Assembly: GCA_903905285.1 (NCBI GenBank)
Contig: CAIVFQ010000090.1
Location: 1 to 11,839, forward strand
Reading direction: 5' to 3'
Source: an uncultured Alphaproteobacteria bacterium
GTDB lineage: Bacteria > Pseudomonadota > Alphaproteobacteria > Paracaedibacterales > CAIULA01
DNA: 11,839 nucleotides
Positions 5,698 to 11,839 of the stretch are shown in pieces (within the stretch, counting starts at the first letter, position 1; every line of letters starts with the position of its first letter). A program made the position numbers and the translations under genes. The notes under the pieces are model-generated. The model was given only the letters and a program-made list of their open reading frames with translations, was not told the DNA's origin and ran no database searches.

Positions 5698-6414
5698 TCA
5701 ATTTCGGGTAACTGGGAGACTATGTCTTCTGTGTTTTTTGCTATGGGCAATTGAAGTTCTGTGCTTTTTACCGTGGGCGACTGGAGCGCTGTGTCTTCTA
5801 TTCGAATGTGGGAAAACGCGTTCTGATTGTCTGAAGATCGTTTTAAGGCAATGTCTTATGCGCTTAGGAACATTGCATAAAAAATAAATAGAATAGGGGA
5901 TAGTACTCGCCAGAAAAATCTTGAGAGCTACGTCGTCATCCGTTGTAAGTGCAGTTGTGAGAATGACCCCATATGATAGATCGGGCGTCCATGGAACCAA
6001 AGGTTTTACCCAAGGCCACAGCCTGTGACACAGTGAAACCCTTGGTCGAACAACTGGCATTATAACATCTAAACGTTTGTCTTCTTGGCTTGTGGTAGGT
6101 GCGCTTACAACAATAACAAAATTAGGATTATCCCTAGCAGATTGGATTCCCTCGCTGGCGTCAGTTTCTGGATTTTCAATTCGTGCTAATGACGGCTCAG
6201 GATAAATAAAATGTAGTGCCCCTGGGTTACTAATCAAGCCGGCATTCCAAAGGTCCTGTACAATATCATGCTCACATTCTAGATATTCCCTAGTTGGAGC
6301 AGGCATTACCAATTGACTTTGGATTGACACACTTCGTTTACTAATTTCTTGCACTTCAGCTGCACAGCATATTCCCTGAACCAGGAAAATAAAAAATAAT
6401 AATATAATATTCAC
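5698..6414 (-). CDS. Exported or membrane protein with basic repeated tail, unknown
   Basis: From the GTG at 6414 the protein has 238 residues. I prefer this start over the TTG at 6420 because GAAGAG, overlapping the cyclase stop region, then sits seven bases upstream. The N-terminus NIILLFFIFLVQGICCA is a signal peptide or anchor. A Glu/Asp-bearing region follows to about residue 155, then a second hydrophobic stretch VALKIFLASTIPYSIYFLCNV (about 160-180). The last ~55 residues are strongly basic and end in roughly 10-residue repeats (RRHSAPVAHG, KKHRTSIAHS, KKHRRHSLPV). If both hydrophobic stretches span the membrane, the basic tail would be cytoplasmic, as the positive-inside rule expects. 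I recognise no family. It is the last gene of the cyclase operon, convergent with efp across 37 bases. Confidence 0.65.
   Translation of the reverse strand: MNIILLFFIFLVQGICCAAEVQEISKRSVSIQSQLVMPAPTREYLECEHDIVQDLWNAGLISNPGALHFIYPEPSLARIENPETDASEGIQSARDNPNFVIVVSAPTTSQEDKRLDVIMPVVRPRVSLCHRLWPWVKPLVPWTPDLSYGVILTTALTTDDDVALKIFLASTIPYSIYFLCNVPKRIRHCLKTIFRQSERVFPHSNRRHSAPVAHGKKHRTSIAHSKKHRRHSLPVTRN
5706..5812 (-). repeat. 30-bp imperfect tandem repeat inside a gene
   Basis: Two full units (5730-5759 and 5760-5789) match at 21 of 30 bases, with nearly all differences transitions. Partial units flank them on both sides (5706-5729 and 5790-5812). The period is a multiple of three, so it encodes about ten residues per unit in the basic C-terminal tail of the minus-strand gene. 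Confidence 0.65.
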
Positions 6415-6427
6415 TGTCAAACTCTTC

Positions 6428-8008
6428 TTACTTAGAAGTTAAATGACAGACGCCATCCCAGTCATCTTCAGGTGGGGTTTTAAGATACATCTGACACCGT
6501 TCAATATAGCTTTTAACAGATTCATCATAAGCAGGAATTGATCCCAATAACTTTTCAAACTCTGACAGGGCTCTTTCCCAATTCATCTTCAGATAAAATT
6601 CAAATGCTTTATCAAAAGCTACAACAAAATCTTGTTGTTCTGCGCTAACGGCTAAATAGTCTTCGGCATTTCTTTGGCCTAATAACTCGTAAATCTTCAC
6701 GCCTTTGTTTTTTCCTTTCACGGCCACTATGTCTAAAGTCCGGCACAAGAAATCGTCTTTAACCTCTTCATAAACGGAATGGCTAACGATAATCTTTGTG
6801 CCATAGAACTTGTTCGTTCCTTCTAAACGGGCACTCAAATTTACAGAATCTCCAATTAAGGTGTAATTCATCCGTTCAGAGGACCCCATATTCCCAACCA
6901 CCACTTCGCCACAGTGAATACCCATACGTGTATTCAAAACTGGTTTGCCTTGGCTTCTCCAATTAGAGTTTAAGGTTTCTAGGGCATACTGACATAACAG
7001 CGCGGCCCGACAGGCATGGAAACTTCGCAATGCATCTTCATCAGGCGCACCCCAAAATGCCATGATGGCGTCACCAATATATTTATCGATGGTCCCATTT
7101 TGTTGAATAATAATTTGTGTGAGCTGTTCAAAATAATCCGAGATGTGGGTCATTAAAGCCTGAGGCGTCATGCCTTCAGAAACGGTTGTGAACCCAGCCA
7201 CATCGGTAAACATAATGGTTAATTTCTTAGATTCACCACCCAGTTGAATGTCTTGGTTTTTTTCTAACAAGCGCATGACCAAGCGCCGCGGCATATATTT
7301 TGTAAATGACTTTAGACTGACTTTCATTGTTTGCATGGTTTGCCCAAGAGTTATGACCTCTTTAATTTTCGAATCGGTTTTCACCTCACCATCAAACTGA
7401 AAACGACGAATTTTAATAGCTTCTTCGGTTAGTTCCTCAATAGGTTCTGACAGTTTTCTGGAAAGGATAATGATTCGCAACAAAACCAAAATAAAAGCAA
7501 AAATATAGATACCAAAATTATCTTGTTGAGATTGCAAAAAGACAGAAAACATCTCGTTAAAAGGCACCAGACTTACAAGCGTCCACTTTTTACCAAAGGA
7601 ATCGTAAAAAGATGTCGTGAACCGGGTAAAGTTAGCAACGTAAGTCTTTTCGTTATTAACAAATTCAAATTGGTCTTGTTTTTCATTTTTATGTTTTTGA
7701 TAAACATTCGCGTAGATGCTATTTGCCATTTCTTTTAAGGTCAACCCTGCAGCATCACCCCCATTACCAGTGGGGACAGACCTTTCCAAGTTCGAAGCGG
7801 CAATGACTTCCTCATTATCATCTAAGATAAACATCACAGAGCCAGGAGAAAGAATATTGTCTTTTAACAGTTGAGAAATGCGTCTCACGTCTATATCAGC
7901 GGATGCAACTCCCCAAACATCATTATTTTCATCTAAAAAAGGACGAGAGGTTGAAATAACCAAATTCTTAATAAAAAAACTCACCCTAATAACAGGGGAG
8001 GTGCTCAT
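6428..8008 (-). CDS. Class III adenylate cyclase, N-terminally truncated Cache sensor
   Basis: A membrane class III nucleotide cyclase that makes cAMP from ATP. From ATG 8008 (526 residues): the second half of a periplasmic Cache domain (about 15-150, including VWGVASADIDVRRI), one membrane segment (about 164-183), a HAMP-like linker, and the catalytic domain (about 260-445). Metal-binding Asp269 (FTDVAGF) and Asp313 (YIGDAIMAFWGAP), adenine-selecting Lys309 and Asp387 (LIGDSVNLSARLEG), and transition-state Asn390 and Arg394 are all present, so the enzyme should be active on ATP. A helical C-terminus ends near the typical WDGV motif. The coding sense of the Cache domain continues upstream of the ATG (GYGSFYDPRSREWY) up to a TAG at 8078-8080 with no start codon, and the first membrane helix is missing. 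The 5' part is therefore damaged. Third gene of the operon. Confidence 0.88.
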   Translation of the reverse strand: MSTSPVIRVSFFIKNLVISTSRPFLDENNDVWGVASADIDVRRISQLLKDNILSPGSVMFILDDNEEVIAASNLERSVPTGNGGDAAGLTLKEMANSIYANVYQKHKNEKQDQFEFVNNEKTYVANFTRFTTSFYDSFGKKWTLVSLVPFNEMFSVFLQSQQDNFGIYIFAFILVLLRIIILSRKLSEPIEELTEEAIKIRRFQFDGEVKTDSKIKEVITLGQTMQTMKVSLKSFTKYMPRRLVMRLLEKNQDIQLGGESKKLTIMFTDVAGFTTVSEGMTPQALMTHISDYFEQLTQIIIQQNGTIDKYIGDAIMAFWGAPDEDALRSFHACRAALLCQYALETLNSNWRSQGKPVLNTRMGIHCGEVVVGNMGSSERMNYTLIGDSVNLSARLEGTNKFYGTKIIVSHSVYEEVKDDFLCRTLDIVAVKGKNKGVKIYELLGQRNAEDYLAVSAEQQDFVVAFDKAFEFYLKMNWERALSEFEKLLGSIPAYDESVKSYIERCQMYLKTPPEDDWDGVCHLTSK

Positions 8009-8139
8009 GCTTTTAGAGGCTTTCGCCTCAATGTACCATTCTCTCGAACGGGGATCATAAAAAGAACCATAACCTCTCTAATGATGTACGTTTTTAGGTC
8101 ATTTCCTCTGACATATGAAAGAAGTCTTCTCATTTTCAT
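8005..8139 (-). pseudogene. Remnant 5' segment of the cyclase, now a 44-residue frame
   Basis: ATG 8139 opens a 44-codon frame six bases after the upstream gene's stop. Its front (SYVRGNDLKTYIIRE) looks like the piece of Cache domain that should precede GYGSFYDPRSREWY, which is encoded in the next frame from 8077 on. The frames join at AGAGAG (8074-8079); removing one AG, or adding one base, fuses them. The small frame ends in TGA (8005-8007) overlapping the cyclase ATG 8008 as ATGA, so termination-reinitiation could feed the cyclase. The first half of the sensor and its membrane helix are absent in any frame. That the small frame is a remnant is inference; it could be a chance frame. Confidence 0.5.
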
Positions 8140-8145
8140 TACCCA

Positions 8146-9198
8146 CTATTCAAAATACATTTGGCTGACGCGTGCAAAAGCCGTATAAATTTCCGGTAAA
8201 ACCATAGAAAATTTTTCCATTAATTTTGGTCGCATTGAAACAATAAAATATTTTGGACTTTGAATCGGAATTTGATTGGCCGGAATTTTTTCTTGAATAA
8301 TTCTTAACGCCATCTTTGCCGCTTCTTCACCTTGCTCAACAGCCGACGTTGAAACGGCAAAGGGGGCTCCATCTTCTACGACAAAATTATTCAAGCCGAT
8401 AATAGGAATTTTGGCATTTTCAACCGTCCATTTCATAATTTCTTTGGGCGGCACAAGCGTCTGATTATCCTGGGAATAAATTACGTTTCTGTAATTAGAA
8501 ATCATAATAAAATCCCAATCATTATTGGCATCAAGAATAGCTTTTTTCCATTCGGGAAATGTGTCAACAAGTCGTGACGGTTTCATCACAATTCGATCCC
8601 AGTTTTTATACTGGTGCAAATAGGCATCATCTAATTTGATAGTAAGGGCCGTGGTGCCAACGTGACCAATACGGATAGGAGATTGAATTTTACTGTGTTC
8701 TGCCATTCCAAGAATAGCATCTTTAATTCCATCCATGGGCAAACGTTCAAGAATACCTGTAACGTTATTCATTTTGTCAAAATCATATTCTTCTATGTTG
8801 GCATTAACACCAGCAAAAACAAATGAAATGGTTGGGTGATTTTTGTAATAGGTTGTGACATAACTTTGCGCATCGTCATCACAAATAATAACCACATCAG
8901 GTTGTAATTGATTGATTGTTTGACGCGCTGCCAATCCGTCTTGCTCTTTAAGGTGTTCCTTATACCGTCTCTTGGTGTCCATGTAAAAATATGCAACTTT
9001 TACAGAGCTAGAATTTTTAAAAACTTTTTCTAACCCAGCGTTAATTTCGTTTACCCAGGTGTAGTCTACGTAGTAACTGTGGACGACCAAAATCTTTTTA
9101 TAGGCTTGATTGTAAATCACAAAAAACATAAAAAGTAAAAGAATCAGAATAAAAGGGACAATGACATCCAGACCTAGTTTTTTAAAAAAATTTTCCAT
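8146..9198 (-). CDS. Membrane-anchored periplasmic binding protein (ABC_sub_bind-like)
   Basis: From ATG 9198 (350 residues; Shine-Dalgarno AAGG about nine bases upstream, favoured over the GTG at 9207). One N-terminal membrane anchor, DVIVPFILILLLFMFFVIY (11-29), is followed by a type I periplasmic-binding fold starting KKILVVHSYYVDYTWVNEI, with DTKRRYKE and PDVVIICDDDAQSYV further on. The HSYY...W...GL opening and the YMDTKR motif resemble the ABC_sub_bind-type domain (PF04392) found as free binding proteins and as sensor modules of signalling proteins. No ABC ATPase or permease gene is nearby, and a stable anchor rather than a cleavable signal suggests sensing rather than import. It starts 16 bases after the transporter stop and ends just before the cyclase segment, so it belongs to the same transcript. 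Its ligand is unknown. Confidence 0.8.
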   Translation of the reverse strand: MENFFKKLGLDVIVPFILILLLFMFFVIYNQAYKKILVVHSYYVDYTWVNEINAGLEKVFKNSSSVKVAYFYMDTKRRYKEHLKEQDGLAARQTINQLQPDVVIICDDDAQSYVTTYYKNHPTISFVFAGVNANIEEYDFDKMNNVTGILERLPMDGIKDAILGMAEHSKIQSPIRIGHVGTTALTIKLDDAYLHQYKNWDRIVMKPSRLVDTFPEWKKAILDANNDWDFIMISNYRNVIYSQDNQTLVPPKEIMKWTVENAKIPIIGLNNFVVEDGAPFAVSTSAVEQGEEAAKMALRIIQEKIPANQIPIQSPKYFIVSMRPKLMEKFSMVLPEIYTAFARVSQMYFE

Positions 9199-9214
9199 TA
9201 CTATCACCCTTATT

Positions 9215-11047
9215 TTACAAAAGACCTATTTGCCGCCAATAAGGCATTGATAAATACAAAGAAAGAATACGGGCAAAATTGATTAATAAATTATACGCCA
9301 GGAATTTCTTACGTTCATAAGGCAGCTTCCCTTCAAAAAAACTTTCAAAATTCATATAGAATGTTGATTGATAAGGGAAAAACCAGACCTCGCTTGCCAC
9401 CAAAAGGGAAAAGGTCATAATCCACAAATTAATTTGGTAGAATTCCCCAATAGGAATCCCTATCATCATCATGATAATAAAGCAGGGCCCTATGGGAAAA
9501 ACAAACCGCGCTAAAATGGTCACCAGAATAAGGGCCGTTAGAACCTGTGGCTTCCCGTCACCCAAAAAGCTTAAGTAAACGGATAAATTATCTTTTATTA
9601 GTGTATCAACATTTAAAAACGCCAAAGATTTCACAATGCCTAAGCTGGCCCCTACCATCAATAAGAAGGACCAATCGGTTTGAGCCGCCCATTCTTTAAT
9701 CTTGATTATTTTTAAAGAAGACAAAGCAAAAAACAAAAACAGGCTTAACCAAGAAAACTGAATTTGGTGAAATGAAAGCGTCAAAATGGCAGCCACAAAA
9801 AACAGAATAACGATAATCGCATGCCATTCTACCGATTTTAAAGGACCCAATATTTCCAGCTGCTGCATAACTTTTTTCTTAGAAATTACCAGGCGCGTAT
9901 TGTCATGGAACAACAAAGATAAACCAAATAAATTTGTCACAATAAGCACTATGGCGGAAACAACAGCCATTGTTGCCCACCCCACTGACGTGATTCGGTT
10001 ATAACTTTGTAATGGCAAAATACCCATAGCAATAAAGTTAATAAGCGACCCTGTGAAAAAGGCACTATTCAAGCTTGTAATACCATAAAAGTTAGAGACC
10101 GCAATTTTGGTGGCTAGGGAAGATTGGTTTTCTACCTTCAAAACTTCGATTAAATCTTCCGTTAAAGGCGCCATCAAACGTGTACGCATCATTGCCGAGG
10201 GAACAATTGGCGTCATGATCGAACCAACCAAGAATAATCCCGCCGAATACCACGATTGTTTCGATGGCAAACTCTTGATCATAAAGATGACAAACCGATA
10301 AACCAACCCAGATGAAATAATAGCCGATGCAATGCCTGATAAAGTCAAAATCAACAAATAGCTATCTGATGAAAATCCTTCTAGGACAATTCGTGATGGC
10401 ACAATGCCCAAAACAAGCAGCGTGATTAAAATAAAAAGGGCCGGGACAAATTCATAAACAATGTTGAAACTCCATAATACCAAACCACAGGATATCGTCG
10501 CCAAGAAAACACGAACGTTATCTCCCAGAGTGGGACTAAGCATATGGTAAGTCACCATGGGTACAATGAATGCAAAAATCCAAGCAAGCAAAACTCTTAA
10601 AGTCGACGCAGAGTTTTTAGACGCGTCCTCTGCTGCAAAGCTGTGCTTTGGAACGGATAATTTGGTGTTATAAAAAAATAAATTAATACCCAGCTCAGGA
10701 TAATTTTTTAATAACTTTTCTAATACCTCTGAGGGAAGCTTGACCAAGACAGCATTTTCCTGCGTTTTGGCCGTATATTCATATAAGTTATCTTTAAAGG
10801 CTGCTTCAGAGCCAAATGATTCATTAACATCGCGCGCCATTTTATGCCGTCGACTTGTCAGCAAAACGGACCCTTTAGCAATGAAATAGACACTGTCAGC
10901 CCGTTCACCTTGTGTAAAAATAACTTGATCAGGCTGACAATCCATAACCTCTATGTAAGGCAGAATGCGTGCTTTTTCAGAATCGTCAATATGAAGAAAA
11001 AAAGGATGAGAGTGCATGAACTCAACAATGGATAATTGTTCGTCCAT
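9215..11047 (-). CDS. SLC13/ion-transporter-like permease with N-terminal cNMP-binding-like domain
   Basis: The 610-residue protein fuses two modules. Residues about 15-125 form a cyclic-nucleotide-binding-like beta barrel (VIFTQGERADSVYFIAKGSV, then SFGSEAAF and LPSEVLEKLLKNYPEL). Residues about 150-610 contain around twelve hydrophobic segments resembling the ion-transporter superfamily (DASS/SLC13, ArsB/NhaD): a P-S-A segment TPIVPSAMMRTRLMAP (279-294), a polar re-entrant-like block ITSLNSAFFTGSLINFI (323-339), WSFLLMVGASLGI (459-471) and a late Pro/Gly-rich block around 515-535. The phosphate-binding cassette is unusual: GSE replaces GE, and no Arg occurs where the cAMP-phosphate Arg belongs (83-100). 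Substrate is unknown. Start ATG 11047 has a strong Shine-Dalgarno, GGAGG (11056-11060), eight bases away. First gene of the four-gene operon. Confidence 0.82.
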   Translation of the reverse strand: MDEQLSIVEFMHSHPFFLHIDDSEKARILPYIEVMDCQPDQVIFTQGERADSVYFIAKGSVLLTSRRHKMARDVNESFGSEAAFKDNLYEYTAKTQENAVLVKLPSEVLEKLLKNYPELGINLFFYNTKLSVPKHSFAAEDASKNSASTLRVLLAWIFAFIVPMVTYHMLSPTLGDNVRVFLATISCGLVLWSFNIVYEFVPALFILITLLVLGIVPSRIVLEGFSSDSYLLILTLSGIASAIISSGLVYRFVIFMIKSLPSKQSWYSAGLFLVGSIMTPIVPSAMMRTRLMAPLTEDLIEVLKVENQSSLATKIAVSNFYGITSLNSAFFTGSLINFIAMGILPLQSYNRITSVGWATMAVVSAIVLIVTNLFGLSLLFHDNTRLVISKKKVMQQLEILGPLKSVEWHAIIVILFFVAAILTLSFHQIQFSWLSLFLFFALSSLKIIKIKEWAAQTDWSFLLMVGASLGIVKSLAFLNVDTLIKDNLSVYLSFLGDGKPQVLTALILVTILARFVFPIGPCFIIMMMIGIPIGEFYQINLWIMTFSLLVASEVWFFPYQSTFYMNFESFFEGKLPYERKKFLAYNLLINFARILSLYLSMPYWRQIGLL

Positions 11048-11789: not shown

Positions 11790-11839
<50 letters not shown>

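Follow-up and report, generated by a model that had tools for sequence, protein, structure and literature searches.

What kind of system is formed when the gene of a permease with a cyclic nucleotide-binding (CNB)-like domain lies beside genes for a periplasmic binding protein and an adenylate cyclase? This question is raised by a locus in a stretch of 11,839 nucleotides from an uncultured bacterium of the alphaproteobacterial order Paracaedibacterales. This stretch, hereafter called the window, is the whole contig G000:C90. A preliminary description had combined four minus-strand genes of the window into a self-contained circuit, in which an extracytoplasmic ligand controls local cAMP and cAMP in turn gates the permease. 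All four open reading frames (ORFs) are present (9215–11047, 8146–9207, 6428–8008 and 5698–6420), but the conserved unit is the pair of permease and substrate-binding protein (SBP) instead of the four-gene circuit. We consider it moderately probable that this pair constitutes a two-gene system, a binding-protein-dependent DASS transporter. Binding-protein-dependent transport is an aspect absent from the preliminary interpretation.

The permease and the substrate-binding protein

The permease (610 aa; 9215–11047, minus strand, as are all features of the four genes given below) consists of an N-terminal CNB-fold domain and a DASS/SLC13-fold transport domain. Its earlier assignment as a CNB-like and SLC13-like transporter was borne out by matches to the Pfam families cNMP_binding (1e-11) and Na_sulph_symp (4.8e-13) and by structure models, which showed a CNB fold at residues 5–127 and a DASS fold at residues 146–610. 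The latter region (9218–10612), delimited by profile and fold matches, scored 49.4 bits against PF00939 (cut-off 27), and a profile of the transport domain matched AtDiT2.1, AtDiT1 and LaINDY with E-values of 9e-19 to 6e-17. The domain is full length: R251, W357 and a YQ near its end are invariant in 27 aligned permease rows, and N337, the Asn of the first hairpin, is nearly invariant among the aligned permeases. No match to DctM was found in the window permease by Pfam up to an E-value of 1; the relative of locus L036 reached 26.9 bits with DctM (cut-off 23.8) but 67.3 bits with Na_sulph_symp.

The SBP (353 aa; 8146–9207) matches ABC_sub_bind (PF04392) at 4.6e-10, its sole Pfam match up to an E-value of 1. 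Structure models show an anchored type I binding protein, in agreement with the anchored periplasmic protein described before. The N-terminal transmembrane anchor is formed by helix 12–35 (9103–9174), and a simple pattern revealed no lipobox. The protein is not a DctP or TAXI binding protein, as would be expected for a TRAP system. Nor did the stretches around the pairs show an ATPase gene beside the SBP, as an ABC importer would have: a pattern scan found no ABC ATPase-like ORF in 50 of 57 loci and never an adjacent one in the other seven, although an ATPase encoded elsewhere in these genomes may exist. A sequence search of the PDB with the SBP profile gave no match at 0.01. Structure comparison returned four ABC_sub_bind entries, below which only general type I folds followed that were not taken as kinship. 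With the NCBIfam TrpX model the SBP scored 25.7 bits (cut-off 390).

The distribution of the two genes was analysed in 57 distinct loci: besides the window, 27 came from its order and 29 from the rest of the phylum or from named records. Not included in this number are L164, L165, L166 and L168, which duplicate L127, L126, L129 and L130, and further copies of loci of the order. A contig search with the window permease alone gave no match, and a search with a permease alignment gave 34 loci. In 56 of the 57 loci the permease gene is immediately followed by a co-oriented SBP gene, including some with split or cut genes (permease in two frames in L052, L186 and L187, SBP split in L187, SBP truncated at the end of the contig in L169). 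In the remaining locus, L175, the contig end cuts the permease gene, and contig C159 of the same genome carries a permease tail together with the SBP gene.

Co-occurrence in genomes showed the same tie. The permease was detected at an E-value of 1e-60 or better in 16 of 398 sampled genomes of the phylum. The SBP profile matched 30 genomes of apparently the same sample at 1e-30 or better. The 16 permease genomes were among them, with E-values no higher than 2.4e-54, and the remaining 14 had values of 5e-43 or above; the cut between strong and weak SBP matches was placed in this gap after the gap had been seen. Within the order of the window, 22 of 42 genomes have the permease (E-value below 1e-40), and all 22 have the SBP. 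Thus, a dedicated SBP gene accompanies the permease, as in binding-protein-dependent secondary transporters, and since this tie is the strongest of the neighbourhood, binding-protein-dependent transport is indicated. In 11 of 20 loci of the order (L036–L042, L044, L046, L047 and L052), a gene of cluster cl2 also adjoins the pair or lies close to it; the cluster member in L038 is a HAD-family hydrolase.

Proposed mode of action, possible substrate and doubts about the pair

For this transporter we infer physical coupling of the two proteins, the direction of transport, dependence on the SBP and regulation. The anchored type I SBP, facing the periplasm, would capture a small solute and hand it to the DASS-fold elevator permease, as TRAP SBPs do for the DASS-like TRAP permease. 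At the cytosolic end of the permease, the CNB-fold domain might set its activity, presumably not by classical cAMP binding.

Hints to the substrate come from neighbouring genes. A PstS-like binding protein, which matches PF12849 above the cut-off and TIGR02136 below it (133.8 versus 206.6 bits), is encoded by the third gene in eight of the 57 loci. In L171 and L172 an alkaline phosphatase gene adjoins the pair, and in L126, L127 and L129 this place is taken by a PF04185 phosphoesterase. These neighbours make phosphate or a phospho-compound our leading guess; an amino acid is the other candidate. A second group of permease–SBP paralogues (L053, L054 and L182–L187) is followed by the PstS-like gene, so that two binding proteins stand beside one DASS-like permease.

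Several observations weigh against the proposed transporter. The window permease reached only 54.5 bits with the NCBIfam DASS model TIGR00785 (cut-off 198.6), and of the two SNT ion and substrate motifs, which we take to be a DASS hallmark, the second is not recognisable by eye. In the order, the SBP occurs without a detectable permease beside it in the SBP-only genomes G037 and G034 (here split) and as a second, solitary SBP gene of G038 on contig C168, and weaker SBP matches were seen in 14 permease-free genomes of the phylum sample. At least 945 relatives of the SBP at 1e-30 and at least 17 of the permease at 1e-3 were obtained from the protein database, although these figures are not comparable, as about 8000 best word-sharing candidates were scored for each. 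Many SBPs may therefore lack a permease. No fusion of permease and SBP was seen among the loci. Proteins of the ABC_sub_bind family are also at work in ABC importers and in sensors. The closest solved structure to the SBP, 3lft, binds Trp, which misfits the hint to phosphate, and the phosphate-related neighbours were noticed post hoc and without a background control.

The solitary SBPs and the excess of SBP over permease relatives among the matches listed would also suit two proteins that are transcribed together because they concern the same nutrient but that act independently, the SBP elsewhere and the permease alone. SBPs of PF04392 usually belong to ABC systems, which likewise speaks for such a separation. 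It is difficult to reconcile with the near-constant adjacency and order of the two genes over several classes, with the coincidence of permease matches and strong SBP matches in one set of 16 genomes out of 398 and with the lack of an adjoining ABC ATPase-like ORF in the scanned stretches. We regard independent action as distinctly improbable.

The CNB-fold domain and the neighbouring cyclases

Canonical CNB domains bind the ribose and the phosphate of the nucleotide through a Glu and an Arg, respectively, of their phosphate-binding cassette. In the window permease the CNB-fold domain comprises residues 5 to 127 or so (10667–11035), and its cassette position, FGSEAAFKDNLYEYTA (10769–10816), has Ser in place of this Glu and Tyr in place of this Arg, and hence not the canonical residues. 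We compared this position by sequence in 48 CNB-bearing permeases, aligned to a model built from 27 permeases. Arg is absent from all 48 and is replaced by Tyr (41), His (4) or Cys (3). The Glu position is occupied by Glu (30), Thr (9), Cys (4), Gln (3), Ser (1) or Met (1), with Ser or Thr in the window and its close relatives, and the position after it is Glu in all 48. As controls, 24 of 37 non-permease CNB matches in the order of the window were used, of which 23 could be aligned (L092 gave no alignment); Arg was found in 22 and Glu in 22 of these, L103 being the exception without both. Because Arg is replaced family-wide while the cassette stays conserved, the CNB domains of the permeases form, judged by their sequences, a conserved but non-canonical subfamily. 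The CNB domain is missing altogether from nine of the 57 permeases (L043, L045–L051 and L188). The gating of the permease by cAMP through this domain, as suggested earlier, thus probably does not work in the way that had been guessed.

Class III cyclases are recurrent neighbours of the pair. At least 17 of the 57 loci have one within three genes, a lower bound since several stretches include fewer than three genes on one of the two sides. It adjoins the pair directly in nine loci (window, L035, L043, L045, L114, L115, L132, L134 and L144), is separated by one gene in seven (L038, L040, L042, L044, L047, L177 and L178) and by two genes in L046. The neighbourhood therefore recurs beyond this genome, both for the pair and for the cyclase. 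Side and orientation of the linked cyclase genes differ among loci, and no cyclase was found in the examined stretches, some of them short, of the other 40. In L035, from the same genus, the genes for permease, SBP and a full-length cyclase of 724 aa lie in a row, and the cyclase and SBP genes overlap by four bases; a 4-base gene overlap was also seen in L114 and L115. For six further pairs of proteins (permease/cyclase: P0004/P0022, P0005/P0024, P0006/P0031, P0007/P0033, P0008/P0023 and P0010/P0025) linkage is suggested by the equal size of the longest contig of both partners.

A dCache match was found in seven of nine Pfam-scanned linked cyclases (half-length in the window). The two without it belong to L177 (9752–14621) and L178 (10007–15238), where the pair is followed by a dCache–SpoIIE–HATPase protein and then by the cyclase. 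Accordingly, some lineages may keep next to the pair a class III cyclase, mostly one with dCache, that probably senses the same or a related extracellular cue, and in these two loci a dCache SpoIIE-type phosphatase is placed between pair and cyclase.

The linked cyclases are not one clade in our tree, from which identical copies (nine sets) and nine long-branch or far rows were removed and in which the cyclases of L177 and L178 are absent. In a tree that still included these copies and rows, the five linked betaproteobacterial cyclases, of dCache–HAMP–cyclase architecture, group together (SH-aLRT 100) and are separate from those of the Alphaproteobacteria. A one-clade constraint on 15 linked and eight presumed linked cyclases was rejected on a quick tree (AU p 5e-9), and five changes between linked and unlinked labels were counted, P rows not included. 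Repeated recruitment of cyclases appears to be the simplest reading; there may instead have been an old linkage with later losses, which the tree does not separate from repeated gain. The five betaproteobacterial genomes contain four to ten cyclase matches each in 2.5–5.4 Mb, so that adjacency of pair and cyclase by chance would amount to about 0.15 to 0.65% per genome, assuming one gene per kb. In the order of the window, 39 of 42 genomes have a cyclase, which is commoner than the permease and must therefore have other roles too. Nine genomes of the order have a class III cyclase match and no CNB match at all (G004, G006, G007, G010, G013, G015, G033, G034 and G037).

How do these data bear on a circuit in which an extracellular ligand, acting through the SBP or the cyclase, raises local cAMP, which binds to the CNB domain and gates the permease? 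The recurrent cyclase genes with their 4-base overlaps and the repeated recruitment with which the tree is consistent are in line with it. Furthermore, the permease is the sole CNB match in seven of the 42 genomes of the order (G000, G001, G020, G024, G038, G040 and G041), all of which have a cyclase, and the family-specific cassette, with its invariant Glu and frequent Tyr, may hold some ligand. On the other hand, the phosphate-binding Arg is gone throughout and the ribose-binding Glu is lost in the window and its close relatives, and four permeases without a CNB domain still lie near a cyclase (L043, L045, L046 and L047). Most loci show no cyclase in the stretch examined, and G473, a complete genome in one contig, has the pair without any class III cyclase match. 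Together with the loss of the sensor half of the window cyclase (see below), this makes a cAMP circuit decidedly unlikely.

The signalling neighbours could also indicate a sensor instead of a transporter, in which the SBP and a permease-like receptor signal to the cyclase or the SpoIIE phosphatase, or via the CNB-like domain to an unlinked partner. Besides the cyclases and the dCache–SpoIIE–HATPase proteins, a response-regulator/histidine-kinase protein adjoins the pair in L130, L167 and L170 (Pfam-scanned in L167 only) and a dCache protein in L173 and L174; in addition, the ion-binding motif of DASS proteins is difficult to make out, and solitary SBPs occur. This explanation is unlikely in our view, since many loci have no signalling neighbour and the transport domain is kept at full length with its invariant residues. 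The binding-protein-dependent transporter thus remains our preferred reading.

In the window itself the cyclase gene is damaged. The preliminary description was right about the class of the enzyme, but the gene (6428–8008; 526 aa) is truncated and encodes only the second half of dCache, a transmembrane helix and the catalytic domain. The latter (6683–7228; PF00211, 87.6 bits; Guanylate_cyc at 5.9e-24) aligns with CyaB 3r5g at 8e-39 and retains two Asp, Lys, Asn and Arg, presumably the metal, substrate and transition-state residues of class III cyclases; by sequence it is an intact class III catalytic domain. The dCache_1 match covers only positions 126–239 of 240 and falls below the model cut-off, so that a complete dCache domain with two transmembrane helices is missing. 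Four relatives (719, 723, 715 and 724 aa) match the window near their N-termini in one frame and from residue 172–180 onward in another, and the two matches overlap on the window. For P0019, residues 1–29 align at 8133–8047 in frame −3 (72%) and residues 180–723 at 8065–6431 in frame −2. What is left behind of the cyclase N-terminus is thus a remnant of 44 codons that is out of frame (8005–8139, minus strand), and about 150 codons, comprising most of the first transmembrane helix and half of dCache, were lost in addition to a frameshift. The stop codon of the remnant overlaps the ATG at 8008 of the 526-aa ORF (ATGA), and coupled re-initiation is conceivable there. The 526-aa protein represents a 90% cluster with seven member sequences on five contigs, the longest of 43,107 bases; the truncation is therefore unlikely to be an error peculiar to this assembly, although cluster members may differ. 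The only other class III cyclase match of the genome (G000:C43:3147–3618, L189) is split between two frames, which together with the truncation suggests that cAMP synthesis is decaying in this lineage.

This damage also alters the picture of four genes packed with gaps of about 5 to 16 bases. Such gaps do separate permease and SBP (7 bases from the GTG, 16 from the ATG) and cyclase and last gene (7 bases), but 137 bases separate the SBP gene from the earliest in-frame start codon of the cyclase; the short gap there belongs to the remnant (8139–8005). Nothing links the last gene (5698–6420), a 240-aa ORF with a signal-like start and a basic tail that had been counted as an exported part of the circuit, to the conserved system. 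It showed no Pfam match up to an E-value of 1 and no NCBIfam match up to 0.01, and tblastn at 1e-3 detected no relative in 20 neighbourhoods of the order. Elsewhere in the window, Pfam detected FYDLN_acid, DciA, GCS2 and Sel1 genes, and a tRNA gene at 11790–11839 is cut by the contig end. The available part of PMC11909080 describes Holosporales as mostly protist-associated.

Comparison with known transport systems

Secondary transporters that work with a binding protein are a known kind of system, and we rate the union of a DASS permease with a type I SBP and a CNB-like domain as a new combination. No description of it was found in top-ranked titles and abstract openings, with subscription journals mostly outside this search. 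A survey of sulfate transporters (PMC5840216) makes, in its available part, no mention of cyclic nucleotides or cNMP and names a periplasmic binding protein only for SulT.

Related proteins differ from the pair in several respects. The window permease differs from DASS/SLC13 members (NaDC3, NaCT, VcINDY, LaINDY and AtDiT) by its score below the TIGR00785 cut-off and by its CNB domain; to our knowledge, the known members work without a binding protein. Yeast Pho90 is a DASS-fold phosphate transporter with an N-terminal SPX domain, and it is eukaryotic, carries SPX in place of CNB and has no SBP. TrpX and other ABC_sub_bind proteins (3lft, 3lkv and CD0873) share about 15% identity with the SBP, for which no ABC partner was seen at the loci. 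TRAP systems such as SiaPQM use another SBP family, and the window permease lacks a match to DctM. SLC9C1 is a Na/H exchanger with a voltage sensor and an unrelated transport fold. Its likeness to the permease, according to the available part of PMC6052114, is that of a solute carrier with a CNB domain. The family-wide change from Arg to Tyr would illustrate clearly how a CNB domain can be put to a new use on a transporter.

The closest parallel is TAXI-GltS of Bordetella pertussis, in which, according to the available part of its description (PMC12344293), an SBP works with GltS, a single-component secondary transporter that presumably operates as an elevator. Both systems combine an SBP gene with the gene of a single-component secondary transporter and lack TRAP membrane genes, and in TAXI-GltS the two genes overlap. 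They differ in their partners, a TAXI (TRAP-type) SBP and GltS there and an ABC_sub_bind SBP and a DASS-fold, CNB-bearing permease here, and in the permease–SBP fusions known there and not seen among our loci. The same text states that before TAXI-GltS only TRAP and TT transporters were known to use a soluble binding protein, that the use of an SBP may be permitted by some property of the elevator mechanism, and that further classes would allow a test (PMC12344293). We propose the pair as a candidate new class, with a CNB-like domain, beside TRAP, TTT and TAXI-GltS. Because DASS proteins share the fold and the elevator mechanism of TRAP (PMC12344293, available part), an SBP-coupled DASS transporter would, if confirmed, be a test case for whether the elevator mechanism permits SBP dependence.
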